DNA from: Chitinophagales bacterium
GTDB lineage: Bacteria > Bacteroidota > Bacteroidia > Chitinophagales > CAIOSU01
Direction: 5' to 3'
Length of the DNA: 64,000 bases
Assembly (NCBI GenBank): GCA_026003335.1
Contig: BPHB01000001.1
Coordinates: 1,386,591-1,450,590 of the forward strand
A model generated the notes under the pieces. It was not told the DNA's origin. It saw only the letters and a list, made by a program, of their open reading frames with translations, and ran no database searches. A program made the translations under genes and the position numbers. Of this stretch, positions 20,282 through 58,791 are shown one piece after another. Each line of letters starts with the position of its first letter. Positions within the stretch are counted from its first letter, which is position 1.

Positions 20282-21333
20282 TTATTGCCCGGATGCAAGT
20301 GGATCCGGCACCTTTTTATGGGCTAAATGTTTTGAATCCGAAAATGTCTGCATCGGTGTTTTGCCAAAGCAGTACTTACCTGAGTGTGTCCGTTTATTGT
20401 TGTAATAGTTAATCCATTCATCCAGGTCTTGTTGCAGCTGATCAATAGAGGTATATAGTTTTTTCCGAAAAGCCACTGCATAAAACTCATCCTGCATGGT
20501 GCGATGAAAGCGTTCGCGGATGCCGTTGCTCTGCGGGGAACGCGCCTTGGTTTTGGAATGCTCAATGCCCTCTACGGTGAGGTACAACTGGTACTCATGG
20601 TATTCGGGTCTGCCGCAGTATTCAGTTCCGCGATCGGTGAGCACGCGCAGCAAGGGAATTCCCTGCTCTTCAAAGAAAGGCAGCGCCCGGTCATTGAGCA
20701 AGTCAGCAGCGGTGAGCGCATTCTTGCGGTCATAGAGCTTTGCAAACGCCACTTTGCTGTACGTGTCAATGAAGGTTTGCTGATAGATGCGGCCTACGCC
20801 TTTGATGTTTCTCAACGTAGTAGGTGTCCTGCGCCCCCAGGTACCGGGGATGTTCGGTGTCTATTTCACCGGCAGCTTCCTGCTTCTCTTTCTTGCGTTC
20901 CAGGGCCAGCATCTGTGCTTCGGTGAGAATAAGACCTTCCTGCGCCACCCTGGCTTCCAGCGCTTTCAGACGCTTGGGAAAGGTTCCCGGATCATGTCTT
21001 TGCCATACGCACCGCACACCACAGGGTGAAATGAATATGCCACGCTTTCGGAGTTCGTTGGATACCCGCTGTTGTCCCAGCGCGGGATTGCCAACGGCCA
21101 TCAACACAACGGATTCTGCCACTTCAGGCTCAACGCGGTTTTTGGGGAATGGGTTTTCTGCAGCTGATCTCCACCAAGTCCTGCTGGCCTCCGGTGTTGT
21201 ACAACTCTTTGATCCGGTAGAAACTGTCGCGGGCATACCCCTTCACCCGGCAGGCCTGGGATACGTTACCTAATTGCTCTGCTAACTGCAGCAGTCCTAA
21301 CCGGGTTTTGATTAACCTGGTTTCTGTTTTCAT
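20282..21333 (-). pseudogene. IS481-family transposase, two frameshifts
   Basis: The reading begins at the ATG at 21333 ([20 protein letters not shown]), with an N-terminal helix-turn-helix region. It breaks near 21143-21146, where one extra base in a C4 run (sense strand) shifts the frame after RRKPIP-like text. The second part reads [11 protein letters not shown] to GAQDTYYV and breaks near 20810-20812 at one extra A. The third part carries the integrase core: DTYSKVAFAKLYDRK, LTDRGTEYCG and NGIRERFHRTMQDEF. D and E residues of the DDE triad are present in these motifs. Removing the two bases restores a protein of about 350 residues, so the loss is small and recent or artefactual. Confidence 0.8.
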
Positions 21334-21386
21334 GTCTGACAGTTTTAAGGGGTTAATTAATTGGTTTTTTTCCTTTAAGTTTAACC

Positions 21387-21417
21387 CCATCTGTCAGATT
21401 AAGTCGTAACTACTTCA
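21387..21417 (-). repeat. Right terminal inverted repeat of the IS481 element
   Basis: On the minus strand the end reads TGAAGTAGTTACGACTTA and continues ATCTGACAGATGG. It matches the left end at most positions from AGTT onward and ends the element with CA on the plus strand at 21416-21417. Confidence 0.7.
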
Positions 21418-21604
21418 CATTATAACTATATCCTCACGGTGACATGTATCAGAACAGATTATTTAAAGTTTAATAAAAAGCAATTACAGTAACATGCGGC
21501 CGAATAAAAGTATATTACAAGCCCTTCATGGCTATTTGCTTATCTGTAAATACTTGTTTGTAACCCACTAACACCTTATCTTACCGACTGCAGTTATTTC
21601 GTCC

Positions 21605-24169
21605 ATGGCCCAAATCATGAGGGCATGCTTAGCATTGCTGGCAAGCAGCCTCCTACAACAAGCCGCAAGCCAAACGTCCTTCATCTCCAGCGGTGCCCTC
21701 TGGAAATATCATTCGGGCAGTGATCCCGGTGTATTATGGAACCAGTTTGGGTATAACGATTCTGCCTGGTTACAGGGACCTTCCCCTTTGGGATTTGGTG
21801 ATGGAGATGAGGCAACCGTTATTCCGGGAGGACCTGCCGGAAATCGGTATCCCACACACTATTTCAGACATCAGGTTATGATTGCCCACCCGGAACTGTT
21901 TCCTGCCTTTATCCTCCGGGTGAAACGGGATGACGGCATTGTAGTGTACATAAATGGTGCTGAAGTGTTCCGGGATAATATATCGGGCATACCCTCATAC
22001 AATTCCTGGGCTTCCGGACCTATTACGGATGATGGAAATGCCTGGCTCACCGCAATCCTTCCATCCTCCTTATTGATGCATGGCGTAAATCTGATAGCAG
22101 CGGAGGTGCACCAGATAAATGCTTCCAGCTCTGACCTTTCCTTTGACCTTGAACTATCCGGAGGACTGGCTCCACCAATAACTATTACGCGAGGCCCCTA
22201 TCTGCAACTCAGTACACCTAACAGCATATATCTCAGATGGACGACCAGTATAGCAACCGTTACGAGGGTGGACTTTGGAATTACTCCCGACAGCCTGAAT
22301 CAGAGCATAGCAAATACTGTGGCCTCTTCCCATCACAGTATACAACTGACCGGACTTTCCCCCGCTACCAGATACTTCTATGCCATCCGTGCAGGCAACC
22401 AAACCCTGCTGGGCGACTCCACCTGTTTTTTCTTTACTCCCCCACTCCCGGGCTCCGGGAAAACCGTAAGAGTATGGGTGACCGGTGATTGTGGCACCGG
22501 ACAATCTGTACAAACAAATGTGATGCACGCTTACCAAAATTTCATCGGTAACCAATATACTGACCTATGGCTTTTATTAGGTGATAATGCATACAACAAC
22601 GGCACTGAACAGGAATATCACACCAATTTCTTCCAGCCTTACATGAATGGAAAGGTTATGCGTCAGACTGTAATATTCCCGACTCCGGGCAATCATGATT
22701 ATGCCAATAATGTGGATTCGCTGGAAAGCCGGTTCAGACCTTACTTTCAATTGTTTGATTTACCCACAGCAGGCGAGACAGGTGGCATTCCCTCCGGAAC
22801 CGAAATGTATTACAGCTTTGACTATGCCAACGTCCATTTCATCAGCCTGGACTCCTACGGCACAGAAAACGGCAGTAAGCTATTTGATACCACAAGTGCT
22901 CAAATAAGCTGGCTTAAACAAGATCTTGCACACAACACTCAGAAGTGGACCATTGTCTACTGGCATCATCCTCCCTACACCAAGGGAAGCCACAATTCCG
23001 ACACAGAATATGAGCTTATTCAGATCAGAGATAAAGTCATACGTCTGCTTGATCAATACAAGGTTGATCTGGTTTTATGCGGCCATAGCCATAACTATGA
23101 ACGCTCCAAAATCATGAAGGGACATTATGGAACGGAAAGCACCTTTAATCCTCTAATGCATAATTTCAGCTCATCCAGCGCTCTCTATAACGGATCAGCC
23201 AATTCATGCCCCTACATTAAATCATCATCTAGCCCTCAAAATGAGGGCATTGTATATATAGTTGCCGGATCTGCAGGAAAGCTTGAAGGCACATCATCCG
23301 GTTACCCACATAATGCAATGTATTATTCCAACTCGCAGCAGGGCGGCTCTTTATACCTGGAAATTACCGGAAACAGGCTGGATGGTAAATGGATAGCCGA
23401 AGACGGCTCGGTACCTGATCAATTTACCATCATGAAAGATGTAAATATTCATACCACCTTGAATGCATCCGCGGGAGACAGCATACAACTTACTGCTTCT
23501 TGGGAAGGTCTCTATGACTGGTCACCACCGGCACCATCCGCTAAAAGCATTACGGTGTCCCCCTTGGTTTCTTCCCTGTATGTTGTTGATGACTCTTTTT
23601 ACAATTGCCTGCAGGATAGTTTTTACATTCAAGTATTAGTCACTATTTCAGGATATGTGCACACCAGAAACGGCAATCCCGTAAAGGGAGTGGCGATGAT
23701 TTTATCCGGAGACCGAAACGACACGACTATTACGGATGAGGCCGGTTTCTACACCTTCTCAGCAGAGGCAGGAGGAAATTACCTGATTACCGCTCTGGCT
23801 ACAGACAGTACAGCAAGCAACTCAGAAATCTCTACTGTTGATATTCTGCACATACGCAGGCACATTTTACATACAGACACACTTTCCCCACATCAAATCA
23901 TAGCTGCTGATGTCAATGAATCAAAAGATGTCAGCTCAGCAGATATCGCATGGATCCGTTCCGTTATTTTGGACAACCTACCAGGCTTTCCCTCCGGAAA
24001 GCAGTGGGAATTTATCCAAAGCGATGAAGTTTTTGGTGACCCTTTACATCCGTTCCCTTTTAGCAGCACACGCACCTATTCCCTGCTAAATAGTCATCAC
24101 ATGGATCAAAACTTTATCGGAATCCGATTAGGCGATGTATACAATCCGGGTGAGCCATCCGGACACTGA
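21605..24169 (+). CDS. Secreted purple acid phosphatase-like metallophosphoesterase with dockerin-like tail
   Basis: This 854-residue exported phosphoesterase probably releases phosphate from organic esters. A signal peptide (ALLASSLLQQAAS) is followed by a beta-sandwich domain (about 25-190) with RDDGIVVYINGAEV. A fibronectin-like domain opens with ITRGPYLQLS. The calcineurin-like core carries all metal motifs: GDCG, GDNAYNNG, GNHDY, HHPP and GHSHNYE. Near residue 690 there is a carboxypeptidase-regulatory-like domain (ISGYVHTRNGNPVKGV). A dockerin-like calcium-loop pair follows (ADVNESKDVSSADIAWI, then IRLGDVYNP at the end). No type IX tail is visible. An ATG at 21617 is an alternative start with a tidier signal peptide. 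The gene at 63294 is a paralogue. Confidence 0.88.
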   Translation: MAQIMRACLALLASSLLQQAASQTSFISSGALWKYHSGSDPGVLWNQFGYNDSAWLQGPSPLGFGDGDEATVIPGGPAGNRYPTHYFRHQVMIAHPELFPAFILRVKRDDGIVVYINGAEVFRDNISGIPSYNSWASGPITDDGNAWLTAILPSSLLMHGVNLIAAEVHQINASSSDLSFDLELSGGLAPPITITRGPYLQLSTPNSIYLRWTTSIATVTRVDFGITPDSLNQSIANTVASSHHSIQLTGLSPATRYFYAIRAGNQTLLGDSTCFFFTPPLPGSGKTVRVWVTGDCGTGQSVQTNVMHAYQNFIGNQYTDLWLLLGDNAYNNGTEQEYHTNFFQPYMNGKVMRQTVIFPTPGNHDYANNVDSLESRFRPYFQLFDLPTAGETGGIPSGTEMYYSFDYANVHFISLDSYGTENGSKLFDTTSAQISWLKQDLAHNTQKWTIVYWHHPPYTKGSHNSDTEYELIQIRDKVIRLLDQYKVDLVLCGHSHNYERSKIMKGHYGTESTFNPLMHNFSSSSALYNGSANSCPYIKSSSSPQNEGIVYIVAGSAGKLEGTSSGYPHNAMYYSNSQQGGSLYLEITGNRLDGKWIAEDGSVPDQFTIMKDVNIHTTLNASAGDSIQLTASWEGLYDWSPPAPSAKSITVSPLVSSLYVVDDSFYNCLQDSFYIQVLVTISGYVHTRNGNPVKGVAMILSGDRNDTTITDEAGFYTFSAEAGGNYLITALATDSTASNSEISTVDILHIRRHILHTDTLSPHQIIAADVNESKDVSSADIAWIRSVILDNLPGFPSGKQWEFIQSDEVFGDPLHPFPFSSTRTYSLLNSHHMDQNFIGIRLGDVYNPGEPSGH

Positions 24170-34796: not shown

Positions 34797-36068
34797 TTAG
34801 TCATTAAAAGATCTCCCCAGGAAAGTAAGCACATTTCTGAAGCCTATATATGACTTGGCTGAATCCTGGTATTCCCAATGCCGCGCACCGGTTTGCAAAT
34901 AATACCCAATATCTTTCCATGAGCCGCCTCTGATAACCTTTCTTTTCATGGTGATAGGATCATCTTCCTTCGCGTCATAGCGAATGTCAGGATTAAGATC
35001 GTGTATAAAGGAATAGGCGTTTTCGTAAAAGGCCGTGGATGTCCACTCCGCAACGTTGCCGGACATGCAGTAGAGACCATAGTCATTAGGCCAGTATGCA
35101 TCAGCCCGCACAGTGTAGAAACCTCCATCTTCCGGGTAATTGCCTCTGCCTGGCTTAAAGTTAGCCAGCAGACAGCCCTTGGTATTTCTCAGATAGGGAC
35201 CACCCCAAGGATAAGGTGCAAGTTTTTTACCCCCTCGGGCCGCGTATTCCCATTCCTGTTCAGTTGGCAGTCGGAAAGGATCATTAATTACCTCACCCCG
35301 CTGGGTTCTGTAATCTTCCCAGAAACGCGTTCTCCATGCGCTGAAGGCATTTGCCTGCCCCCAGGTAACACCTACTACAGGGTAGTCATCAAATGCCGGG
35401 TGCCAGAAGTAGTTTCTGGTCATGGGCTCATTGTAGGAGTAGGAAAAGTCTCTTACCCATACCAAGGTATCAGGATAGACATTGGTTACTTCCTTCCGGA
35501 TAAATTCAGACCTGGGCTTATTCCGATTAGCTACTTTGGCTGCCTCCTTAATATCTATCCAGTAATACTCATAATTCAATTTTCGCACATCAAATTCTTT
35601 CTTATGCCAGAATCTTTCATTTTCCGGATAGTACATATCATTAAGGGTTTCTGCATATTCCTCATCTTCATAGTTGAAGTTTTGCATGCGGTCCCAGTCA
35701 ATACGTCCTTCGCCTTCGGGATTGTTATCATCGGTAATGAGCATATCAGCCCCAATGGTTTTGGCAGCTATGGAATCTCTTACCCAATGCACAAACTGGC
35801 GGTATTCGTTGTTTGTGATTTCGGTATCATCCATGTAGAAGCCTTGAATAGATATAGCCTTGCTACGTTGTATCATGGAATTGTTGACATCTTGGTCACT
35901 CGGGCCTATGTGGAGCGTACCGGAGGGTATATAAACCATGCCATAGGGAATGACATTATTCCACTTGGGGCGATCCTGAACCCCAATAAGCTGCCCGTTG
36001 TAGCCACTCCCGCATCCTGCAAGGATGATAACTGAAATGCCTGAAGCAAAAAGCAGATTCTTTTTCAT
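34797..36068 (-). CDS. gldK: Gliding motility / type IX secretion lipoprotein GldK (PorK)
   Basis: GldK is an outer-membrane lipoprotein with a formylglycine-generating-enzyme (SUMF1) fold. It forms a large periplasmic ring with GldN. The 423-residue protein has a lipoprotein signal (SVIILAGCGSGYNG, acylated Cys near 19). SUMF1-like motifs include MDDTEITNNEYRQFVHW, FRLPTEQEWEYAARGG, MSGNVAEWTSTAF and KVIRGGSWKD. It is structural and probably not catalytic. It is the first gene of the gldKLMN run. No perfect TAnnTTTG promoter is found upstream; TATATTTA (36123 to 36116, minus strand) is the closest match. Confidence 0.93.
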   Translation of the reverse strand: MKKNLLFASGISVIILAGCGSGYNGQLIGVQDRPKWNNVIPYGMVYIPSGTLHIGPSDQDVNNSMIQRSKAISIQGFYMDDTEITNNEYRQFVHWVRDSIAAKTIGADMLITDDNNPEGEGRIDWDRMQNFNYEDEEYAETLNDMYYPENERFWHKKEFDVRKLNYEYYWIDIKEAAKVANRNKPRSEFIRKEVTNVYPDTLVWVRDFSYSYNEPMTRNYFWHPAFDDYPVVGVTWGQANAFSAWRTRFWEDYRTQRGEVINDPFRLPTEQEWEYAARGGKKLAPYPWGGPYLRNTKGCLLANFKPGRGNYPEDGGFYTVRADAYWPNDYGLYCMSGNVAEWTSTAFYENAYSFIHDLNPDIRYDAKEDDPITMKRKVIRGGSWKDIGYYLQTGARHWEYQDSAKSYIGFRNVLTFLGRSFND

Positions 36069-36198
36069 TTTAACTTTTTTTAGAGCCTTCTGAGTGCATT
36101 TCTCAAAGAGGCGTGTAAATATACATGTTTTGCAAAAAAAGAAAAATATCGTTTTTTAGTATTTCCTTCTTTCAGGTTAAAGTTAGGGGTTTTATCAG

Positions 36199-37173
36199 TC
36201 ACAAAAACCGGGGACTATAAATAATTTTACCTTTTTTCAACAACTCCTTGACGTTGACCCGGTAACCCACGAAAAGCTCATGTGAACCGGTATTGACCGC
36301 ATTAAGGGCAGACAGGGAAAAGTCATAGCTGTATCCTATCATAATTCTCTTCAGCAACTTAAAACCTGCCATAACCACCAGCGCATCATTCTGGCTTTTA
36401 GTAAAGCCTCTTAACGAAAGTCCTCCGTAAATATTGTCTTTATATTGTAAAATCACGTTGACCTCCGCCTGCGTGTTGTTGAAATCGCTTAACATTATTA
36501 CGTTGGGAGCGAGTGTTAGTTTCCCTTTAAATCTGAACTGATAACCCGCCATCGCAGTGATGTACCGCGTGTTTTTTATTTCAGTCCGGTATGCATTCCA
36601 TTCAAACCGGGCCTTTGTCTCCAGCAGATTATTGGCTGAAAAGCCGGCATATAGGTTTTTTGTCTGAATCAAAATACCTGAGCTGATATCCCCGGTAAGA
36701 GCAGAACTCAGCAGCTCGGGAATATAGACATCATTGTGTACAATTCCCTGATCATATCTCCCTTCCGGTGCTTTCAACCGCGCCCCATCAATAGCCCTTT
36801 GCATAATGCCTCCGCTGATTCCTGCTCTCAGAATCCAGCTGCGAAAGTCCTGTTCATAGGCATACGAAATAAAAGCCGATGTAATGCGCTCTTCACCCTG
36901 AAACTCATTAACAGCAAGCACTCCGACACTGGAATTAGCAACCGTAAGGGGAGAACTTAAAGAAAGTGCCTGAACTGAAGGGCTACCCTGTATGCCTACC
37001 CATTGTGTACGATATACTGCAAATACCTCCAGGGCACCGTCAGCCCCGCTCGCTGCCGGGTTATGTAATGTTTTAAGGTGCATGAAGTTGGAAAATACCG
37101 GGGCATTCTGAGCCATGGCATAATGCACAGCCAGGGAAAACACAAGCACTATATGCTGGCCCAGTGATCGCAT
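36199..37173 (-). CDS. PorP/SprF-family type IX secretion outer-membrane protein
   Basis: Proteins of this family are outer-membrane beta-barrels linked to type IX secretion and to anchoring of particular exported proteins. The 324-residue protein has a signal peptide (LVFSLAVHYAMAQ). The family opening is NAPVFSNFMHLKTLHNPAASG, split as a short strand and the NPA signature, with IMIGYSYDFSLSALN near the C-terminus. It lies just upstream of gldK in the same direction and may share its regulation. Several paralogues usually occur in one genome, so I give no specific symbol. Confidence 0.9.
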   Translation of the reverse strand: MRSLGQHIVLVFSLAVHYAMAQNAPVFSNFMHLKTLHNPAASGADGALEVFAVYRTQWVGIQGSPSVQALSLSSPLTVANSSVGVLAVNEFQGEERITSAFISYAYEQDFRSWILRAGISGGIMQRAIDGARLKAPEGRYDQGIVHNDVYIPELLSSALTGDISSGILIQTKNLYAGFSANNLLETKARFEWNAYRTEIKNTRYITAMAGYQFRFKGKLTLAPNVIMLSDFNNTQAEVNVILQYKDNIYGGLSLRGFTKSQNDALVVMAGFKLLKRIMIGYSYDFSLSALNAVNTGSHELFVGYRVNVKELLKKGKIIYSPRFL

Positions 37174-47230: not shown

Positions 47231-48319
47231 TCAGGCAAAAAAACGTCTTACTTCTTCGGCTATGCGTTCGGAGGCCTTTCCATCCCACAGAGGAGGCACC
47301 CGGCCTGTTTTATAGCGACCCTGTGCGATGTCATCCAGCAGGGACAAAATTCTTTTTCTATCAAAGGGCACCAGCGTGTTTGTCCCAACAGTAATGGTAA
47401 CGGGGCGTTCCGTATTAGGGCGTATGGTAAGGCAGGGAATTCCCAGGTAAGTGGATTCTTCCTGTATGCCTCCCGAATCGGTAAGCACGGCAGCGGCATA
47501 TTTCAGTAAATGAATAAAATCCAGATACCCGACAGGATCAGTCAGAATGATGTTCGGCTTATCAAGCAAGGATGCAACCTTATGTTCTGCCAGGCGTTTT
47601 CTGGTTCGCGGATGCACCGGGAAAACTACCTGTTTTGTACGGGAAACTTCTTCCAGCAAGCGGATTATTTCCTCCAGAGCGTTTTCCGTATCCACATTGG
47701 AGGGACGGTGGAATGTTACCAGATAATAATCAGAAAGATTATACCTGGTGCGAATGTCTGATTGCTCAATAAATGGTAAAAACCTCACCAGGGCATCAAT
47801 CATGGTATTGCCTACAAATTTTATCTTTTCCGCAGATTTACCTTCCCTGTGCAGATTTTGCACACCGCTTTCTTCGGTAACAAAAAGCAAATCACTGAGG
47901 TCATCCACCAGGATGCGGTTTATCTCTTCAGGCATGGAACGATCAAAGCTCCTGAGGCCACTTTCTATATGCGCCACCGGAACCCGACATGCAGAAGCTG
48001 CAAATGCGCAGGCAAACGTGGAATTCACATCACCGGGCACCATAATCAAATCCGGTCTGTAGCTTTCAATAACAGGCTCCATAGCCAAAATAATTTTACC
48101 TACTACTTCATTATTGGAGCTCCCTTTTACATTGAGGTGAAAATCCGGCTCGCCAAGGTTAAGTTCTTTAAAAAAAATTCCGCTCATATTATGATCAAAA
48201 TGCTGACCTGTATGCAACAGCTTATATTCAAAACCACGCTGCTCCAGTAATTCCCTGAGATTGACGGTTTTGATAAAATTCGGGCGTGTGCCCACACAGG
48301 TTAATATCTTTTTTGCCAT
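47231..48319 (-). CDS. UDP-N-acetylglucosamine 2-epimerase family enzyme (WecB/WbpI-like)
   Basis: This non-hydrolysing epimerase inverts C2 of UDP-GlcNAc or of a UDP-diacetamido-uronic acid. The 362 residues show VGTRPNFIKTVNL, GDVNSTFACAFAA, HIESGLRSFDRSMPEEINR and LTDSGGIQEESTYLG, all family hallmarks. Sequence alone does not separate WecB (UDP-ManNAc synthesis) from WbpI (acting on the di-N-acetylated uronate). WbpB-, WbpD- and WbpG-like genes on the opposite arm favour a WbpI-type role. It starts 17 bases after the upstream glycosyltransferase. Confidence 0.92.
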   Translation of the reverse strand: MAKKILTCVGTRPNFIKTVNLRELLEQRGFEYKLLHTGQHFDHNMSGIFFKELNLGEPDFHLNVKGSSNNEVVGKIILAMEPVIESYRPDLIMVPGDVNSTFACAFAASACRVPVAHIESGLRSFDRSMPEEINRILVDDLSDLLFVTEESGVQNLHREGKSAEKIKFVGNTMIDALVRFLPFIEQSDIRTRYNLSDYYLVTFHRPSNVDTENALEEIIRLLEEVSRTKQVVFPVHPRTRKRLAEHKVASLLDKPNIILTDPVGYLDFIHLLKYAAAVLTDSGGIQEESTYLGIPCLTIRPNTERPVTITVGTNTLVPFDRKRILSLLDDIAQGRYKTGRVPPLWDGKASERIAEEVRRFFA

Positions 48320-49731: not shown

Positions 49732-50802
49732 ATGAAAAGTCCGGTAAAGTTTGCCGTTGTGGGTTTCGGGCTCATAGGACAACGCCATGCCACTATCATC
49801 AGCAAACATCCACAATCTGAACTTAGTGCTATCGTAGAAATTGATCCGCAAAAACGTACAGAAGCCCGGAAGCAGTTTCGTGTACCGGTGTTTGAAACCC
49901 TGGAGGCTATGAGAAATGCTGTGCTGCCAGTGGATGTAGTAAGTATATGCACACCCAACCACTTGCACGCCCCTTTAGCCTTGCGGGCTCTGGATTACCG
50001 GTATCATGTTATCATTGAAAAACCTATGGCCCTGAACCGGGCTGATTGTGAAAAAATAATTTTCAAATCGCTGCAGGTTTCACGAAATGTCTTTGTAGTA
50101 AAGCAAAACCGCTACAGCCCTCCCTCTAAATGGCTAAAAGAAATACACGACACCGGAATACTGGGCAATATTTATATGGTGCAGGTAAACTGCTACTGGA
50201 ACCGGGACGAGCGCTACTATAAAAAAGGAGGCTGGAAAGGCCAACTACACCAGGATGGCGGCATCCTCTTCACGCAGTTTAGCCACTTCATTGACATTAT
50301 GTATTGGGTATTCGGGGATATTAAAAATATCCATGCCCGGTTTGAGAATTTCAATCACCGGCCGTCAACGGAATTTGAAGACAGCGGCATGGCAACCTTC
50401 GACTTTGTGAATGGGGGCATGGGTTGCATAAACTTTACCACCGCCTGCTATGATAAAAACATGGAGAGCAGTATTACGGTGGTAGCCGAAAACGGATGCC
50501 TGAAAATTGGCGGCCAGTACATGAACGAAGTAGAATACTGCCATATAAAAAACTATACGCTTCCGGTGCTGGAGCCTACCAATCCACCCAATGACTATGG
50601 CCCCTACAAAGGCAGCGCAGCCAACCATCATCACGTAATACAGAATGTGATTGACACCATCCATGGAACCGCCTCCATTGATACCAACGCCCTGGAAGGC
50701 ATGAAAGTAGTGGATATCATTGAGCGTATCTACGCTCAGCGCGATGTGAATCGCCTCACGGATATTTCCCCGACAAAAGCACATCAGCCCCTATCGCTAT
50801 GA
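49732..50802 (+). CDS. Gfo/Idh/MocA-family oxidoreductase (WbpB-like UDP-sugar 3-dehydrogenase)
   Basis: This 356-residue NAD-dependent dehydrogenase has the Rossmann motif [10 protein letters not shown] (10-19) and the catalytic EKPMAL lysine region, followed by [18 protein letters not shown] with the active-site histidine. The overall pattern is that of WbpB/WlbA, which oxidise the 3-hydroxyl of UDP-GlcNAc uronate before transamination. The assignment rests partly on the WbpD-like gene that directly follows, overlapping by ATGA. The partner aminotransferase (WbpE) and the 6-dehydrogenase (WbpA) are not in the window. Confidence 0.85.
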
Positions 50803-51377
50803 ATCAGCATGTTTTTATACATCCTTCCTCCTATGCAGATGAAGGATGCCAGATTGGCGAAGGCACAAAGGTGTGGCATTTCTGCCATATTATGCCCAAA
50901 GCCCGCATCGGTAAGAACTGCAGTATCGGCCAGAACGTATTTGTCGCCAACAATGTAGTGATCGGCAATAATGTGAAAATTCAGAACAATGTTTCTCTCT
51001 ATGAAGGGGTAATCTGCGAAGATGATGTATTTCTTGGCCCGTCAATGGTCTTTACCAATGTCATCAATCCGCGCAGTGGGGTAGAACGCAAAACCGAATA
51101 CCGGAAAACTCTGATCAAACGGGGGGCATCCATTGGCGCCAATGCCACAATCATATGTGGTGTAACCCTGGGAGAGTATTGCTTTATCGGTGCCGGAGCA
51201 GTGGTTACCCGGAACGTACCGGCCTTTGCGCTCATGACCGGAGTGCCGGCAAAAATCACCGGCTGGATGAGCCGACATGGTCACCGGCTTGTGTTTGACC
51301 ACAACAATACGGCCGTGTGCCCTGCCACACAGGAAAAATACGTATTGGAAAACAACCAGGTTCGTCTGCTGGGTTGA
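50799..51377 (+). CDS. WbpD-like UDP-2-acetamido-3-amino-uronate N-acetyltransferase (left-handed beta-helix)
   Basis: This 192-residue acyltransferase has hexapeptide repeats of a left-handed beta-helix: [36 protein letters not shown] and [32 protein letters not shown] and [11 protein letters not shown] complete the pattern of WbpD/WlbB enzymes, which acetylate the 3-amino group of the UDP-uronic acid. It starts inside the stop codon of the WbpB-like gene (ATGA) and ends in a TGATG overlap with the next gene, so translation is coupled. The acceptor is inferred. Confidence 0.88.
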
Positions 51378-52714
51378 TGTTCAACATCGCGGCCATGCCT
51401 CATCGCTTTCTGTGGTCTCTTCTTATCTTCACTATTGCCTTCTGGCTCTGGCGGCTGCCCTTTTTCCTCTGGATACCGCTGCCGGAATTTGCCCCTGATA
51501 CCTTTGACTATTTCGCTCTGGCAAGGCTCTGGCATGAGGGCAATATTGCCCATAACTACCCTCTGGATGCACCTCTGGGCTTTCCGCTTTTTATTCTGCT
51601 TACCACACTTATAGGCTGCAACATACTGACAATCATCGCCATACAATGCTGCATAAAGTTTCTTGCCGGAGCCACACTGCTTTATACCCTATACAAGTAC
51701 TATCCACGCTGGACCCCGGCTTTTATGCTGGCGCTGCTTTTTTATATCACCGATAGTTTTTCGCTGCGTTACGACACCTGCCTGCAAACAGAATCTCTGT
51801 ACAACTCAGCAATTCTTTTTACAACCGCTTTTCTCGTGGACAGCATCCGAACAAACAAAAACCTCCCCTTGTTTCTGCTTTCCCTGAGTATGTTTACCAT
51901 GGCATTTATCCGCTCCAATGGCTTATTTATTTACTTTTTATTTCCGGTACTCGTTGTATGGCTTATCTTCAACCAACGCAGCTGGAGGGCCTTTGCCAGT
52001 CTGCTGCTCCCCGCCCTCGCGCTGCAAACCGTTATCCCTGTGCTGAAACACACCACTGACTACCTGCCGGAGTCTTCCAGTCGGGTTGAAGATGTCTTTG
52101 CAAGAGAAAAAACTGCAGTGCAGCATGTTTCCTTCCACACTTATCTGCAGAAGAAAATCAGTATGGCTGCCGCCTATCTGAGTATGCCCGACTTTCCGAG
52201 TTTTTATTTCAGCCTGCTGCCATCCCGTTATGAAGAGCTCTATACTAAAAACATGATGCATGATCCAGATTACAAAATGCTGGATTGGACCACCCCCATT
52301 CCGGACGAGCTCAGGAAGTTTACCTTCCGGGAATACTATGAAGAACCGGAACGTTTGCGGAAAAATGCCGACCTCATGCAGGTCAGCAGCGCCAGGAGCA
52401 ACCCTTTGATGCTGCTCATCCATATCGTGTATAAAATTCAAAATATTATTTTCAGAAATTTGCTGTGGTATGTTATCAGCTTTTTCCTCATGGCAGTTGG
52501 TATAATTACGCTGCTAAAAAGCAAATACACCAATAAGGAAGCGATGATAATTCTGCTTATCGGCCTGATTCACCTGCTGGCAGTATTGGTTGTGATTATC
52601 GGAAATTCCAGGGTTCAGCTGCGTTATACACACGTATCGGAGTTTCTGCTTTATCTGGCTCCTCTTATGGGTATGCTTCTTGTATTTCCTCACGGAAAAT
52701 CAACTATCCGCTGA
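51377..52714 (+). CDS. Multi-pass membrane protein, GT-C glycosyltransferase-like
   Basis: This protein of about 445 residues has around ten hydrophobic helices. An early acidic motif (FAPDTFDYFALARLWHEG) on the first outer loop resembles lipid-linked-sugar-dependent GT-C enzymes such as the ArnT/PMT group. I start at the ATG at 51377, which overlaps the upstream stop (TGATG); a GTG at 51317 would extend into the acetyltransferase gene. It could instead be a polymerase or another membrane glycosyltransferase. The next gene starts one base after its stop. Confidence 0.7.
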   Translation: MFNIAAMPHRFLWSLLIFTIAFWLWRLPFFLWIPLPEFAPDTFDYFALARLWHEGNIAHNYPLDAPLGFPLFILLTTLIGCNILTIIAIQCCIKFLAGATLLYTLYKYYPRWTPAFMLALLFYITDSFSLRYDTCLQTESLYNSAILFTTAFLVDSIRTNKNLPLFLLSLSMFTMAFIRSNGLFIYFLFPVLVVWLIFNQRSWRAFASLLLPALALQTVIPVLKHTTDYLPESSSRVEDVFAREKTAVQHVSFHTYLQKKISMAAAYLSMPDFPSFYFSLLPSRYEELYTKNMMHDPDYKMLDWTTPIPDELRKFTFREYYEEPERLRKNADLMQVSSARSNPLMLLIHIVYKIQNIIFRNLLWYVISFFLMAVGIITLLKSKYTNKEAMIILLIGLIHLLAVLVVIIGNSRVQLRYTHVSEFLLYLAPLMGMLLVFPHGKSTIR

Positions 52715-52715
52715 G

Positions 52716-53816
52716 ATGCTGCACAATAAAACCGTTGCGGTAGTGGTGCCCGCCTATAATGAAGAAAGCCAGATCGGCATGGTGCTGGAATCTATGCCTG
52801 ATTTTGTTGACCGCATCGTTGTGGTAAATGACTGCAGCACGGATAACACCGCAAAAATTGTAGAGCAATATATCCGGAATGACACTTCTGATAAAAAGCA
52901 CATTCCGAATAAACTCCAAAGCCAGTTCAAAGCAAACAAATACAATAAAGCCGATGAAATACTGCATCAGCAGGGACGTGAGGAACTCCGTTTTTTCAAT
53001 CCGGCTGAGATTGCCAACATCAACCCCGACACTGATCGCATCATCCTGATTAACCATAAGGTAAATGGTGGCGTGGGGGGAGCCATCGCTACCGGATACA
53101 AATGGTGCAAAGACCATAATATTGATTGTACTGCAGTAATGGCCGGTGACGGGCAAATGGATCCTGCCGAGCTGGAAAGCATTTGCCTGCCTATTGTAAA
53201 AGATGAAGTAGATTATGTCAAAGGCAACCGTCTGATTCATCGCAGTGCGTGGCTGGTTATTCCCAAGCTGCGTTATTTCGGAAACTCCATTCTCTCCATT
53301 CTTACCAAAATTGCCTCAGGCTACTGGCGGGTGAGTGATACGCAAACCGGCTACACAGCCATCTCCAGAGCGGCTCTGAATTCCATTCGTCTGCATGAAA
53401 TATACCGCAGCTACGGGATGCCTAACGACATGCTGGTAAAGCTCAATATCGCCATGTGTACACTGAAGGAGGTACCCATAAAACCTGTGTATAATGTAGG
53501 CGAAAAGTCCAAGATGAAGCTTGCCAAAGTGATACCGAAAATATCCTGGCTGCTGGTGAAGTCGTTTTTCAAGCGGCTCTGGATTAAATATCTCTTTCGC
53601 GACTTTCATCCGTTATTTCTGCTCTATAATTTTTCATTTATTCTCCTCCTTGCTTGGATACCCTATTTGATCAAGGTATCGCTGGCGCTTCTGCAAGGAC
53701 TAACGCTTTCCTTTGAAACGCTCTTTGCTTTCACCTTTCTGGGCATCAGTGCATTTCAATCACTATTGTTCGCCATGTGGATGGACATTCAGGATAATGA
53801 ACGCCTCTACAAGTAG
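52716..53816 (+). CDS. Glycosyltransferase family 2 with C-terminal membrane helices
   Basis: This 366-residue GT2 enzyme resembles polyprenyl-phosphate sugar synthases. It has VAVVVPAYNEESQIGMVLES, the nucleotide motif IVVVNDCSTDNTA and the metal site AVMAGDGQMDPAEL. An insertion of about 40 charged residues (60-105) interrupts the GT-A domain. Two helices near the C-terminus (FSFILLLAWIPYLI and FAFTFLGISAFQSLLFAMW) anchor it. The ATG at 52716 follows the upstream stop by one base; an in-frame TTG at 52680 is less likely. It may make a lipid-linked donor for the GT-C-like neighbour. Confidence 0.85.
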   Translation: MLHNKTVAVVVPAYNEESQIGMVLESMPDFVDRIVVVNDCSTDNTAKIVEQYIRNDTSDKKHIPNKLQSQFKANKYNKADEILHQQGREELRFFNPAEIANINPDTDRIILINHKVNGGVGGAIATGYKWCKDHNIDCTAVMAGDGQMDPAELESICLPIVKDEVDYVKGNRLIHRSAWLVIPKLRYFGNSILSILTKIASGYWRVSDTQTGYTAISRAALNSIRLHEIYRSYGMPNDMLVKLNIAMCTLKEVPIKPVYNVGEKSKMKLAKVIPKISWLLVKSFFKRLWIKYLFRDFHPLFLLYNFSFILLLAWIPYLIKVSLALLQGLTLSFETLFAFTFLGISAFQSLLFAMWMDIQDNERLYK

Positions 53817-53868: not shown

Positions 53869-55860
53869 ATGTGTGGCATATTTGGCATCATTAAAAGTGA
53901 ACATGCTTCACTGAAGGGCCGCGATTTTGAAGAAGCCTTCACTCGTCTGATCATACTATCCTCTTCCCGGGGAAAAGAAGCCTCGGGTTTGGCGCTGTTA
54001 TCAGGTGATACCATTGAAGTATATAAAACCCCACTCCACCCCGACCATTTTATCCAATCATCCTATTACAAAAACCTTTGCCGCAACGGACGGCTTGCAG
54101 GCGCTCAGGTTGTCATCGGCCATTCCCGCATGGTAACCAACGGCACGGAATATTCCAATCAAAACAACCAGCCCTTTATCCGGCAGGGTATCACCGGCAT
54201 CCATAACGGCATTATTGTGAATGCGCGGGAAATATGGGAGCGGCATGCGGAGCAAAAACCGCTTACAGAACTGGATAGCGAAGTGCTGCCCATGCTGGTC
54301 CGAAACGCCCAGGATCAAGGCTTGCCCCTTGGAGCAGCCGTGGCGGAAGCATATCGGGAAATTTACGGAATGGCTTCCATAGCACTGCTGTTCCATGATT
54401 TTCATAATGTCATTTTGGCTACCAATAATGGCTCGCTCTATGTTGCCGTTTCCGAAGCCGGCACAGAAGTGCTGTTTGGCTCAGAATACTATATCCTGCA
54501 GCAACTGATTAAAAATAAGCTGAGCCGTTACTTCCGGGAAAAGTCCATTACCGGACTTGAGCCAGGACAGCTTTGCTCGGTGCATCTGCAATCTTTATCT
54601 GTGGAAACCACCCCTCTGGAAAATGCGGCACAACTGAATAATATCCAGCAATTCAATCCTCCGCGCATCATCCGGGATGTGTCTGATCCGGTTACTCCCA
54701 CACGGGGCCGCCTGATTGAAAAAAATATTCCTACTGAATTTGAACAGGCCTATCAAAAACGGGCAGAAATGATAAGCCGGCTAAAACGGTGTGTGAAATG
54801 CCTGCTGCCGGAGACCTTTCCTTCCATACATTTTGACACACACGGACTTTGTAATTTCTGTGCCAGCTATGTACCCATCAAAGTAAAAGGACCTGAGGCC
54901 CTTGCTGCAGCTGCCCGAAAGATGAAAAACACTGGCTCACGACATGACTGCCTCGTATCGCTCAGTGGAGGGCGTGACAGTTGTTACTCATTACATTACA
55001 TTAAAAAAGAATTAGGTTTGTCGCCTCTTGCTTTCTCCTATGACTGGGGCATGATAACCGATCTGGCAAGACGCAATCAGTCACGCATGTGTGCCAGGCT
55101 GGGCGTGGAACACATTCTGGTATCAGCCGACATTCGCAAAAAACGCAGAAACATCCGCCTGAATGTGCTGGCTTGGCTCAGGAAGCCGCACCTTGGCACC
55201 ATTCCCCTCTTTATGGCAGGCGACAAGCAGTATTTCTATTATGCCCATCGCATAAAAAAACAGAACAACATTTCTACCACTATCATGGGCGAAAATCATC
55301 TGGAGAAAACCGGCTTTAAATCCCTCTTCAGTGGAGCCAATCTGGAAGAGTCGGGTTTCATGTCTTATCACATCTCCACGGCCAACAAATTGCGCATGGT
55401 AGCATTCTACGCCAGAGAATACCTTACCAATCCGGCTTACCTGAACATCTCCCTGCTGGACACCATTGGCGCCTTCTTCTCCTATTACGGAATGGAGCAC
55501 AACTACCTGAATATTTTTGATTACCTGCGATGGGATGAACAACAGATTGCACAAACTCTCATAAATGAATACGACTGGGAAACTGATCCGAGCACCACAA
55601 CTACCTGGCGCATAGGAGACGGCACTGCTGCTTTTTATAATTACATTTACTACATGGTTGCAGGTTTTACGGAGAATGATACCTTCCGCAGCAATCAGAT
55701 ACGCGAGGGTATGATTACCCGGCAGGAAGCATTGCGCAGGTCAATCCAGGAAAATATGCCGCGCTGGGACTCCATTCAATGGTACTGCAACACCATTGAT
55801 ATTGACTGGAAGGAAACCATTCGCAGAATCAATCAAATCCCAACCCTGTACGCCCAATGA
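53869..55860 (+). CDS. Fusion of class II glutamine amidotransferase and WbpG-type N-acetyl-sugar amidotransferase
   Basis: Two enzymes are joined in 663 residues. Residues 1-240 are an Ntn-type glutaminase: the catalytic Cys2 in MCGIFGII, the glutamine-binding GHSRMVTNG (84-92) and HNGIIVN (112-118). Residues 305-660 match the WbpG/PseA-like sugar amidotransferases: a CVKC...CNFC pair (308-331), PP-loop SLSGGRDS (364-371), and GDKQYFYYAHRIKK. WbpG enzymes turn an acetamido group of a UDP- or lipid-linked sugar into an acetamidino group, normally with ammonia from a HisH/HisF pair. Here the fused glutaminase would supply it. The layout (GATase-II then PP-loop ATPase) copies AsnB. The ATG is followed closely by the typical Cys. 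TAATTTTA (53845-53852) is a weak -7 site. Confidence 0.87.
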   Translation: MCGIFGIIKSEHASLKGRDFEEAFTRLIILSSSRGKEASGLALLSGDTIEVYKTPLHPDHFIQSSYYKNLCRNGRLAGAQVVIGHSRMVTNGTEYSNQNNQPFIRQGITGIHNGIIVNAREIWERHAEQKPLTELDSEVLPMLVRNAQDQGLPLGAAVAEAYREIYGMASIALLFHDFHNVILATNNGSLYVAVSEAGTEVLFGSEYYILQQLIKNKLSRYFREKSITGLEPGQLCSVHLQSLSVETTPLENAAQLNNIQQFNPPRIIRDVSDPVTPTRGRLIEKNIPTEFEQAYQKRAEMISRLKRCVKCLLPETFPSIHFDTHGLCNFCASYVPIKVKGPEALAAAARKMKNTGSRHDCLVSLSGGRDSCYSLHYIKKELGLSPLAFSYDWGMITDLARRNQSRMCARLGVEHILVSADIRKKRRNIRLNVLAWLRKPHLGTIPLFMAGDKQYFYYAHRIKKQNNISTTIMGENHLEKTGFKSLFSGANLEESGFMSYHISTANKLRMVAFYAREYLTNPAYLNISLLDTIGAFFSYYGMEHNYLNIFDYLRWDEQQIAQTLINEYDWETDPSTTTTWRIGDGTAAFYNYIYYMVAGFTENDTFRSNQIREGMITRQEALRRSIQENMPRWDSIQWYCNTIDIDWKETIRRINQIPTLYAQ

Positions 55861-56900
55861 ACTTTGTGCTTTCTGTTGAACATCCTGCCTGGGCGCACCA
55901 ATTCCGTTACATCATTCAACTGCTTGAACAACGCGGGCATCGGGTACTGGTGCTCGCCATAAAAAAAGATGTAGACCTGGAACTGCTGAAGCAATTCGGC
56001 ATCCCTTATGTGCTGGTAGGCACTACGACCGGAAGCGGTATCCTGCAGAAAGCCTGGCTACTGTTTAGCATTACCCTTAAGATGATTTGGGCCTGCCGCC
56101 ACTACAAGCCGGATTGCTTCATTGGCCGTGCCTCCCCGATGATGGCAATGACAGCTGCCTGTTACAGGCGCCCCCACGTCATATTTGAAGACACCGAGCA
56201 TTCCCATATCAGTCTTTTCTTCTGCCGACACCTGAGCACCCGCATCATCACCCCTGTTAGCTTCAGAACAAACCTCGGTAAAGCTCAGAAGCGATTGCCG
56301 GTTTATAAAGAATCCTTTTATCTGCACCCCGCCCATTTTAAACCGGACCCCGCTTATCTGCATGCAATCGGCATACAGGAAGGAGAGCCTTTTGTGCTTA
56401 TGCGCTTTGTTGCATGGACTGCTGACCATGACCTCGGACAGAAGGGCTTGAGCCTGCAAACAAAAATTAAAGCCGTGAAAGCATTTGAACAATTCGGACG
56501 TGTACTTATTTCTTCCGAAGAGCAACTGCCTGCTGCACTGGAACCCTACCGTATTCGTATTGCTCCTGAAAAAATACACCATATCATGTACTACGCATCC
56601 CTTCTTTACGGTGAAAGCGCCACTATGGCATCAGAATGCGCTGTTCTCGGCACTCACGCTATCTACTGTGACTTCACCGGACGCGGCTACACCGATGAGC
56701 AGGAAAAAAAGTATGGACTGGTTTATAATTTCAGACTGGACCCCGCCTCCCAGGAGGCCTCTGTTCAGAAAGGGATGCAACTGCTGCAAAATCCCAATCT
56801 GTGGAAAGAAGGTAAAAACAAAAGGGAAAAACTGCTTCAGGAAGTACGTGACGGCTCTTCCTTATTTCTGGAGGAACTCGCTGAAGTAGAAAATCTATAA
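55857..56900 (+). CDS. DUF354 glycosyltransferase-like protein
   Basis: This 347-residue protein of the DUF354 family has a fold resembling GT-B glycosyltransferases. It opens MNFVLSVEHPAWAHQFRYII with a His/Asp-rich early loop. VIFEDTEHSH and YGESATMASECAVLGTHAIY are family signatures. The function is unproven; members are common in polysaccharide loci. It starts in an ATGA overlap with the amidotransferase fusion, so the two products are made together, perhaps as consecutive steps on the same sugar. Confidence 0.82.
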   Translation: MNFVLSVEHPAWAHQFRYIIQLLEQRGHRVLVLAIKKDVDLELLKQFGIPYVLVGTTTGSGILQKAWLLFSITLKMIWACRHYKPDCFIGRASPMMAMTAACYRRPHVIFEDTEHSHISLFFCRHLSTRIITPVSFRTNLGKAQKRLPVYKESFYLHPAHFKPDPAYLHAIGIQEGEPFVLMRFVAWTADHDLGQKGLSLQTKIKAVKAFEQFGRVLISSEEQLPAALEPYRIRIAPEKIHHIMYYASLLYGESATMASECAVLGTHAIYCDFTGRGYTDEQEKKYGLVYNFRLDPASQEASVQKGMQLLQNPNLWKEGKNKREKLLQEVRDGSSLFLEELAEVENL

Positions 56901-56958: not shown

Positions 56959-58791
56959 ATGTGTGGCATTGCAGGAGTTTTTTCTTCTAATCCGCTGACG
57001 GCCTACCATCGCAGTGTGATAGAGCGTATGAACAACATTCAGCAACATCGCGGCCCCGATGATGAAGGCATACAGGTAAATGAAAAATGTATTCTCGGAC
57101 ACCGCAGGTTGTCTATCATTGACCTTTCGCGAGACGGGCACCAGCCTTTTATTTCAGCAGACGGACGCTATCAAATGGTTTACAACGGAGAGATATATAA
57201 TTACATAGAGCTCCGCGAGGAACTGAAAAAACTTGACCGTGTTTTTCTTACCCAAACCGACACTGAGGTACTGCTCACTTGTTATATCCAATACGGCAGC
57301 GCATGCCTGGACAAACTTAACGGCATGTTTGCCTTCGCCATTTATGATACACAGCAGCACACCCTGTTTTTAGCACGCGACCGATTTGGAAAAAAGCCAC
57401 TCTACTACACCGAAGTTGAAGGCTGCTTCTATTTCGCTTCTGAAATAAAGGCCCTTCGCATTGTTCAACACTCCCGCTCAGTAAACCTTCAAAGTCTGTT
57501 TGACTTTCTTTGCTTCAACCGCACGGATGTGTTTGACGAAACCTTTCTGAATGAAATCCGGAAAATACCCAAAGGCCATTATGGATTTCTCACTGCCGGA
57601 CGCAAATTGGAAGTCAGGCAATGGTGGAATCCTGAGAAATTTATTCAGCACACCACTTCCGACACCCCGGCAGACATCTACCGCAAAATTGAAGAGCTCA
57701 TCTGCTCAGCCGTAGCGCTGCGTATGCGCAGTGATGTGCCTGTTGGCTCCTGCCTGAGTGGCGGACTGGACTCCTCGGTTATTGCCGGCATTCTCTACCA
57801 GAAACATCTTGCCAATGAAAACTATAAAACCTTCACCGTTTCATTTCCGGGCCATGCCATAGACGAAACACATTTCATTGACCTGCTGCAGCAGCGTTAC
57901 GGATTCAAAAATTTCAGAACCTGCCCCACTGCTGATAGCGCCTTTGATGAGTTTGAGCGCTTCACATTCATGATGGACGAACCCTGCACCAGTCCTACTT
58001 TTTACTCACAATATAAAGTTATGGAACTGGCGCGGCAGAATGGTGTAACCGTTTTGCTGGATGGTCAGGGCGGAGATGAAAGCTTTGCCGGCTATCAGTA
58101 TTTTCATGCTTTTTTCCAAACCTATCTGTTGCGTAAGGGTAAAGTGTTTTCTTTTCTCAATGAAGTCCTGCACGCTGCTTTGCGCAGGCAGGAAAAAGAG
58201 TCGTTTCAAACACTACTTTTCCAGAATATTCCTGACTTTTTACGGAAGATGCTGTTATACGCCACTTTGAAAAACCATGTGCAAAAGGATTTCTTCTATA
58301 CCTACATTGACAGCAGTCGCATATTCCGTTATTTTTTCAATGCTACTGATCTGAATACCAGTCTCGTACGGCATTTTCAGTATAAACTGGAACACCTCCT
58401 CCGCACAGAAGATCGCAACTCAATGGCCTTTTCCATTGAAGCACGATTGCCCTATCTGGATTATCGTTTCGTAGAGTACGCTCTTAGCGTACCTCAGGAA
58501 CTTAAGATCACAAAAGGTGAGAACAAAATTTTGCAGAAGCGTTCTCTGGGGAAATATACCATTCCGGAGATTCTGAACAGAAAGGATAAAATCGGTTTCG
58601 GCACCCCGGGAGAGCTGTGGATGCAGACAGAAAAATGGCAAAAGCGCACTGCAGAAAATTATGATTACCTACTTGAAAAATTTCCCGGAGTATTCAGGCG
58701 GGGGGCTGTGTTGAAGAATAACCTCTTTGAACGCTGGAAAGTCAACCAGCTGGCTGTCTGGCACCGTCAGGTTTGGATGAATCCTTCATGA
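56959..58791 (+). CDS. asnB: Asparagine synthase (glutamine-hydrolysing), AsnB-type
   Basis: This 610-residue enzyme has an N-terminal class II glutaminase (MCGIAGVF, Cys2; RGPDDEG; NGEIYNY) and a C-terminal PP-loop synthetase (CLSGGLDSSVIAGIL near residue 265, then DGQGGDESFAGY and RTEDRNSMAFSIEARLPYLD). Copies within polysaccharide loci often act on sugar carboxylates rather than aspartate, for example amidating uronic acids. Such a role is possible here, since the locus is predicted to make a uronic acid. True asparagine synthesis cannot be excluded. Confidence 0.9.
   Translation: MCGIAGVFSSNPLTAYHRSVIERMNNIQQHRGPDDEGIQVNEKCILGHRRLSIIDLSRDGHQPFISADGRYQMVYNGEIYNYIELREELKKLDRVFLTQTDTEVLLTCYIQYGSACLDKLNGMFAFAIYDTQQHTLFLARDRFGKKPLYYTEVEGCFYFASEIKALRIVQHSRSVNLQSLFDFLCFNRTDVFDETFLNEIRKIPKGHYGFLTAGRKLEVRQWWNPEKFIQHTTSDTPADIYRKIEELICSAVALRMRSDVPVGSCLSGGLDSSVIAGILYQKHLANENYKTFTVSFPGHAIDETHFIDLLQQRYGFKNFRTCPTADSAFDEFERFTFMMDEPCTSPTFYSQYKVMELARQNGVTVLLDGQGGDESFAGYQYFHAFFQTYLLRKGKVFSFLNEVLHAALRRQEKESFQTLLFQNIPDFLRKMLLYATLKNHVQKDFFYTYIDSSRIFRYFFNATDLNTSLVRHFQYKLEHLLRTEDRNSMAFSIEARLPYLDYRFVEYALSVPQELKITKGENKILQKRSLGKYTIPEILNRKDKIGFGTPGELWMQTEKWQKRTAENYDYLLEKFPGVFRRGAVLKNNLFERWKVNQLAVWHRQVWMNPS

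Follow-up and report, generated by a model that had tools for sequence, protein, structure and literature searches.

A class II glutaminase fused to a WbpG/WbuX-type domain: a widespread lineage of putative one-chain sugar amidotransferases

Introduction

Sugar amidotransferases of the WbpG/WbuX type (TIGR03573; LpNASAT, 8WEX) normally occur with HisH2 and AglZ/HisF2 (NF038364). According to an excerpt of one report (PMC10607449), WbpG forms the C-3 acetamidine of ManNAc3NAmA, ATP-to-AMP chemistry has been proposed for this step, and the structure and function of the family are little known. An AsnB-like protein, WbpS, is required for the uronamide of the same sugar class in an organism with a type IX secretion system (T9SS), as stated in an excerpt of a second report (PMC7468200).

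Here we describe a gene in a 64,000-nucleotide stretch of DNA from a Chitinophagales bacterium (C1:1386591-1450590, hereafter the window) that encodes a glutaminase and a WbpG-type domain in one chain. We find that the fusion belongs to a separate lineage of a widespread, misnamed enzyme family that has been overlooked and, that it most likely releases ammonia from glutamine and transfers it to a sugar bound for the cell surface. We did not find it described in the open-licence PMC literature.

Results

The gene is an uninterrupted open reading frame (ORF) in which a complete class II (N-terminal nucleophile, Ntn) glutaminase is joined to a WbpG-type PP-loop domain, confirming the architecture proposed in an earlier, sequence-only reading of this DNA (Table 1). 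In Pfam, the N-terminal half scores 43.5 bits against GATase_7 (cut-off 25) and 39.9 bits against GATase_6 (cut-off 27), with no other Pfam family matching the protein at E <= 0.001; among NCBIfam models, this half scores 57.8 bits against GlmS-type PRK00331, 41.1 against PurF and 19.9 against AsnB. The motifs are those named in that reading, with Cys2 followed by GHSRMVTNG (residues 84-92), HNGIIVN (112-118) and SLSGGRDS (364-371); the Cys directly after the start Met, the Arg, the Asn-Gly, the Asp and the fold are those of a class II (Ntn) glutamine amidotransferase. We take the roles of the conserved residues to be those known from GlmS (glutamine site) and from PP-loop enzymes. The C-terminal half carries both the tetracysteine CxxC...CxxC and the PP-loop SGGxDS given as WbuX/NASAT motifs in the excerpt of PMC10607449. 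No model spanning the whole architecture came up in Pfam or NCBIfam.

An AlphaFold 2 model of the fusion built from 30 sequences (mean pLDDT 91.7, pTM 0.90) agrees with these assignments. When aligned with VIA-align, it matches E. coli GlmS 2j6h (Z 27.2, rmsd 2.7, 239 residues aligned), the GlmS glutaminase domain 1xff (Z 26.9, rmsd 2.6, 226 aligned), PurF 6ott (Z 25.9, rmsd 2.4, 239 aligned) and human ASNS (Z 21.0, rmsd 2.5, 198 aligned), and residues 303-663 match LpNASAT 8wex, the sole solved sequence relative of the C-terminal half (Z 23.6, rmsd 4.5, 318 aligned). Among the best 50 of 843 Foldseek rows, each match covered one half, with a query-normalised TM score of at most 0.37, and no solved two-domain arrangement was present.

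The key residues of the two catalytic modules are in place, and the modules have been conserved as a pair. In an alignment of 34 fusions (the window protein, 29 loci from genome_contigs and four from nearer relatives), Cys2 is kept in 33/34 and R87, H112, N113, G114 and D136 in 34/34, and the PP-loop residues S366, G367, G368, D370 and S371 are invariant (34/34). C308 of the zinc site is likewise invariant, C311, C328 and C331 are each conserved in at least 90%, and the site as a whole is kept in 33 of the 34 rows; the fusion of locus L060 (10001-11980) has lost three of the four cysteines. The same locus holds a second, broken fusion copy (20471-21967).

As to how widespread the fusion is, a matter raised by the sequence-only reading, genome_contigs yielded 35 relatives, and 29 of these are single-ORF fusions of full length; of the other six, two are split (L065, L067), three have no glutaminase (L069, L070, L071) and one runs past its contig end (L072). 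Judging by the tree rows described below, single-ORF fusions occur in records from at least 14 phyla (Bacteroidota, Ignavibacteriota, Fidelibacterota, Atribacterota, Chloroflexota, Planctomycetota, Myxococcota, Campylobacterota, Pseudomonadota and five candidate phyla), and fusions are found on three plasmids, one of them in Solidesulfovibrio (Thermodesulfobacteriota). Many of these records are metagenome bins; those not so labelled include Bradyrhizobium pachyrhizi, Bosea, Agrobacterium, Solidesulfovibrio and E. coli. A full-length fusion frame is present in 6/395 sampled genomes of the window's phylum (three first-look candidates being scored per genome), in 5/60 genomes of nearer relatives, the window's own genome counted, and in 2/5,426 E. 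coli genomes by a DNA search that misses divergent copies, the two strains (Z1323CEC0011 and Z1323CEC0003) sharing identical DNA across 4.1 kb. The records call the protein 7-cyano-7-deazaguanine synthase, hypothetical protein or glucosamine 6-phosphate synthetase; we reject an identity as GlmS or QueC because each such name covers at most one half.

In a midpoint-rooted IQ-TREE phylogeny of the PP domain (70 rows), 38 fusions and four nested rows without a glutaminase form one group (support 96/90), and 20 classical WbuX rows, including both copies of the window's genome, form a separate one (100/100); six further stand-alone rows make up a third group, and stand-alone copies from L049 and the long-branched L147 fall just outside the fusion group. 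The rows exclude L139, which duplicates L054, as well as four sequences of insufficient length (L067, L072, L148 and the second copy of L060). The four nested rows are the broken L065 and, at different places, L069, L070 and L071; since the last three are scattered, the tree would fit a single fusion event followed by about three losses of the glutaminase. In L148 (9017-9898), a transposase-type N-terminus (DUF4372) runs in frame into fusion residues 434-665, apparently a fusion copy cut by an insertion element.

A phage search gave, in the 20 of 24 rows listed, matches confined to query residues 1-306, that is, the glutaminase half and linker. We considered, and rejected, as split partners a set of stand-alone class II glutaminases (275-329 aa) that match the N-terminal half (L129:6753-10127, and similarly L130-L137), the L129-L137 stretches being without a WbuX-like frame. 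In L129, the one of these stretches whose neighbours were checked in Pfam, a phage-type COOH-NH2 ligase and a Mu Gam-like protein are encoded next to them, which probably makes them part of a prophage peptide-ligase system different from the fusion.

The sequence-only reading had further proposed that the built-in glutaminase is a different solution that replaces HisH2/HisF2. As it stated, neither is encoded in the window, where nothing matches PF00117 or PF00977. Elsewhere in the same genome, however, contig C9 carries a classical WbuX (270.7 bits) beside HisH (216.6 bits) and AglZ/HisF2 (315 bits, cut-off 310), and contig C2 a second classical WbuX (210.6 bits). The genome's HisH2/HisF2 pair thus adjoins another WbuX and is not a locus partner of the window fusion. 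The expectation that genomes with the fusion lack hisH2/hisF2 does not hold in general either. We surveyed 42 genomes for HisF2, of which 38 were counted (three have only glutaminase-less members, and G106 and G464 gave identical matches; the genomes of L065, L067 and L072 lay outside the survey): HisF2 scores above the cut-off in 13/38 and is below it or absent in 25/38, many of these being bins that may be incomplete. In the phylum sample, 2/6 fusion genomes have HisF2 above the cut-off compared with 30/389 others (p 0.08), and we reject genome-level substitution as a rule; the pooled comparison (13/38 against 30/389, p 1.6e-5) mixes phyla and search routes and is not leaned on.

At the level of the locus, HisF2 is found near the fusion in 6/39 loci and near classical WbuX in 11/20, these 20 control loci being hand-chosen, mostly one per genome, all from the window's phylum and in some cases shorter than 20 kb. 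A complete WbuX-HisH2-HisF2 trio occurs near the fusion in 4/39 loci (L038, L138, L145 and L146, in stretches of 20-22 kb), and L044 and L060 have HisH2 and HisF2 in the stretch around the fusion. The fusion is thus usually unaccompanied by a HisH2/HisF2 pair, yet does not exclude it. The simplest reading of a trio and a fusion in one cluster is two separate amidation steps, and the fusion is more probably an enzyme that acts in parallel than a plain substitute for HisH2/HisF2.

Table 1. Features of the fusion gene and its neighbours in the window
Feature	Position	Strand	Basis
WbpI-type 2-epimerase	47231..48319	-	4neq (UDP-GlcNAc 2-epimerase) E 4.4e-86; 8sxv (UDP-2,3-diacetamido-glucuronate 2-epimerase) E 3.1e-82; TIGR00236 319.8 bits
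WbpB/WlbA-type 3-dehydrogenase (Gfo/Idh/MocA)	49732..50802	+	3q2i E 6.9e-51; 3q2k E 1.7e-46; next family E 8.1e-18
WbpD/WlbB-type N-acetyltransferase (hexapeptide)	50799..51377	+	3mqg E 6.5e-73
Polytopic membrane protein, possibly GT-C transferase (weak assignment)	51317..52714	+	seven hydrophobic segments; no Pfam match
GT2 glycosyltransferase, two C-terminal hydrophobic segments, polyprenyl-phosphate type by weak matches	52713..53816	+	PF00535
Fusion gene, putative glutamine-dependent sugar amidotransferase, 663 aa	53869..55860	+	one uninterrupted ORF, starts MCGIFG
N-terminal Ntn (class II) glutaminase domain, residues 1-260 (Cys2, R87, H112-N113-G114, D136)	53869..54648	+	Pfam GATase_7/GATase_6, GlmS fold
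C-terminal zinc/PP-loop WbuX/WbpG-like domain, residues 306-663	54784..55857	+	TIGR03573 match, LpNASAT fold
Tetracysteine (zinc) motif C308, C311, C328, C331 (CxxC pairs)	54790..54861	+	
PP-loop SGGRDS, residues 366-371	54964..54981	+	
DUF354-like (glycosyltransferase-like) protein, translationally coupled to fusion	55857..56900	+	PF04007 E 0.00097, below cut-off
AsnB-family amidotransferase, possibly WbpS-like	56959..58791	+	TIGR01536 450.2 bits (cut-off 267.1); TIGR03108 385, below cut-off 816.9

The window also encodes homologues of WbpB, WbpD and WbpI, with which the UDP-diacetamido-uronate substrate suggested by the sequence-only reading is in keeping. We take 3q2i and 3q2k to be WlbA and 3mqg to be WlbB; for the epimerase, the UDP-GlcNAc 2-epimerase scores slightly above 8sxv. 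On contig C2 of the same genome lies a WbpE-like aminotransferase (best match WbpE, E 1.7e-103) and, within 5 kb of it, a WbpA/TviB-like dehydrogenase (493.7 bits to the TviB model, cut-off 592), so that UDP-2,3-diacetamido-uronates can probably be made. A comparable gene set surrounds the E. coli fusion (WP_059274954.1; 609 aa, 38.6% identical to the window protein): between galF and gnd of strain Z1323CEC0003 (NZ_CP148493) there are WbpB-, WbpA- (TviB, over the cut-off), WbpD- and WbpE-type genes, wzx, wzy, a GT4 gene, a WecB/WbpI-type epimerase gene, the fusion and another GT4 gene. No HisH2, HisF2, AsnB or other WbuX is annotated in this galF-gnd cluster, the hisH/hisF found further on being his operon genes, and the fusion is the only annotated sugar-amidotransferase candidate of this O-antigen cluster. 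WbpB, WbpD and WbpE homologues also occur at the loci of the glutaminase-less L070 and L071.

Immediately downstream, the stop of the fusion gene and the start of the DUF354-like gene overlap by four bases. The L038 homologue of that protein scores above the PF04007 cut-off (40.2 bits, cut-off 22), and homologues are found at 11/39 fusion loci and 1/20 classical loci. The AsnB-family gene is, as had been noted, the second gene downstream (PF00733, 214.6 bits for the gene at 56959); AsnB homologues occur at 8/39 fusion and 7/20 classical loci, which is no difference.

Among the neighbours tested, the one most specific to the fusion is the GT2 glycosyltransferase, which has sub-cut-off NCBIfam matches to AglJ, PpgS and dolichyl-phosphate transferases. 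With the window's own gene as the query, homologues are present at 21/39 fusion loci, directly upstream of the fusion in 12 of the 39, and at 0/20 classical loci (p 2.2e-5); within Bacteroidota, the counts are 7/17 and 0/20. PMT_2 matches 20/69 polytopic ORFs near fusions and 1/17 near classical WbuX, counted over ORFs rather than loci and between sets that differ in taxonomy. These associations suggest that the amidated sugar may often pass over polyprenyl phosphate. Carbamoyltransferases were seen in two places, directly after a distant stand-alone WbuX-like protein in L147 (9195-12130) and adjoining the fusion in L143 (11910-13640); further N-modification of the same sugars is possible there.

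About 17 kb from the fusion, on the minus strand of the window (34797-37173), lie T9SS genes: gldK (601.7 bits) and one of the PorP/SprF family. By analogy with the organism in the excerpt of PMC7468200, the Wbp-type sugars of this genome might serve as T9SS linking sugars.

Discussion

We lean towards the view that the fusion is a one-chain, glutamine-dependent sugar amidotransferase that makes an acetamidine, forms a separate lineage with its own pocket and is able to coexist with a HisH2/HisF2-fed WbuX. In such an enzyme, Cys2 of the Ntn domain would hydrolyse glutamine and the ammonia would pass to the PP-loop domain, where ATP would adenylate a nucleotide sugar at the oxygen of one of its N-acetyl groups (giving AMP and PPi) and ammonia would then displace AMP to leave the acetamidine. 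The likeliest substrate here would be UDP-2,3-diacetamido-2,3-dideoxy-uronate, made by the WbpB, WbpD and WbpI homologues nearby together with WbpA and WbpE on the other contig. An acetamidine product is likely in view of the residues that the fusion clade (41 rows) has in common with classical WbuX (20 rows), namely the zinc site, the PP-loop, N403, D421, D452, W570, Y592, S608 and R618, which make the same core chemistry likely.

Several observations weigh against this view. The C-terminal half (residues 306-649) matches the TIGR03573 WbuX model with 135.4 bits (E 3e-39), under the curated cut-off of 203.2, as do the fusions of E. coli (145.4 bits), L042 (151.8) and L038 (132.8), and at P314, E479, K484 and W555 the fusion clade and classical WbuX have each fixed a residue of their own; compared with the latter, the fusion probably has the same core and a different pocket. 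The glutaminase domain is dispensable in some lineages: it is absent from L069, L070 and L071, and in L047 (9983-11983) Cys2 and the RGKEASG and GHSR motifs are lost, although the reading frame is kept and so is the PP-loop half. Aligned as DNA with L045, the L047 stretch shows substitutions, most frequent at third codon positions, and no frameshifts, the proteins being 80% identical in the PP half and 65% in the glutaminase half; the genome of L047 (G457) has no HisF2 above the cut-off. Finally, at least three of the five pathway genes are found at only 2/42 fusion loci (0/20 classical), and WlbA-like genes at 2/39 fusion and 2/20 classical loci. Diacetamido-uronate genes as a fixed partner of the family are not supported, there being no enrichment, also with wider queries; family-wide, either the substrate varies or the pathway genes sit elsewhere, as in the window's genome.

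Of the other explanations, that of a uronamide synthase, in which the fusion would act on an N-acetylated uronic acid and amidate its C6 carboxylate, as AsnB-like WbpS does elsewhere, has some, if minor, likelihood. An Ntn glutaminase combined with carboxylate adenylation is AsnB logic, the pocket is unlike that of classical WbuX, the complete trios beside four fusions make a second kind of amidation plausible, and the pathway of the E. coli cluster, with the fusion as its only annotated amidotransferase candidate, yields a uronate; WbpS is moreover known to make the uronamide of this sugar class (excerpt of PMC7468200). Yet the PP-loop domain groups with WbuX and not with Asn_synthase, its zinc site is kept in nearly all rows, and the AsnB-family gene of the window (with homologues at other fusion loci, as counted above) could account for the uronamide separately, in which case the fusion would make the amidine. 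That the glutaminase half is regulatory or idle, with ammonia arriving free or from the genome's HisH2/HisF2 pair, is very improbable: the decay of this half in L047 relative to the better-kept PP half, its absence from three loci and the presence of a pair in the window's genome would fit, but 33/34 fusions retain Cys2 and all 34 retain R87, N113, G114 and D136, the C9 pair lies next to a classical WbuX of its own, and 25/38 fusion genomes (many of them possibly incomplete bins) have no HisF2 above the cut-off.

The GT2 and PMT_2 associations, together with the missing enrichment of diacetamido-uronate genes, would also suit a fusion that amidates another or a lipid-linked sugar tied to the polyprenyl-phosphate-type GT2, the diacetamido-uronate pathway of the window being incidental or serving other steps. 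We regard this as quite unlikely, given that diacetamido-uronate genes are present in the E. coli, window and glutaminase-less L070/L071 clusters, and that the GT2 identity comes from sub-cut-off matches and its enrichment from a query of the window's own and hand-chosen controls of other taxonomy. A broader proposal, which we put forward as speculative and unlikely rather than far-fetched, is that of an unnamed, separate family that would amidate a sugar of a polyprenyl-phosphate-type GT2 (often GT-C) route to a product that is not simply the WbpG amidine; in some bacteria it would work beside a HisH2/HisF2-fed enzyme, so that one surface polymer would carry two differently made amidations.

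Amidation alters the charge of surface sugars, and an enzyme that is found in at least 14 phyla under three names tends to be missed in genome-based glycan predictions. Assays should be simpler with one glutamine-driven chain than with the WbpG-HisH-HisF trio. The E. coli O-antigen cluster, whose diacetamido-uronate gene set is full and in which the fusion is the sole annotated sugar-amidotransferase candidate, lends itself to a direct test of what the product is.

Compared with known systems, the fusion resembles GlmS and PurF in the Ntn glutaminase fold and motifs of its N-terminal half; unlike them, it has no SIS or phosphoribosyltransferase domain after the glutaminase, and the name glucosamine 6-phosphate synthetase fits the N-terminal half alone. 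With AsnB and WbpS it shares the order of modules, an Ntn glutaminase followed by a PP-loop ATPase, and to this extent the AsnB layout invoked by the sequence-only reading stands; the likeness ends there, as the C-terminal half has no PF00733 (Asn_synthase) match at E <= 0.001 and the glutaminase is nearer GlmS/PurF, and for these reasons we reject an origin from AsnB. With WbpG/WbuX, whose kind of glycan cluster the fusion also inhabits, the C-terminal half shares the PP-loop, the tetracysteine zinc site and the overall fold. The fusion differs from WbpG/WbuX in falling below the family cut-off, in its separate clade and other fixed pocket residues, and in carrying a class II glutaminase of its own instead of relying on the class I HisH pair. 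WbpG/WbuX-type amidotransferases are known; what is new is a putative sugar amidotransferase with its own glutaminase.

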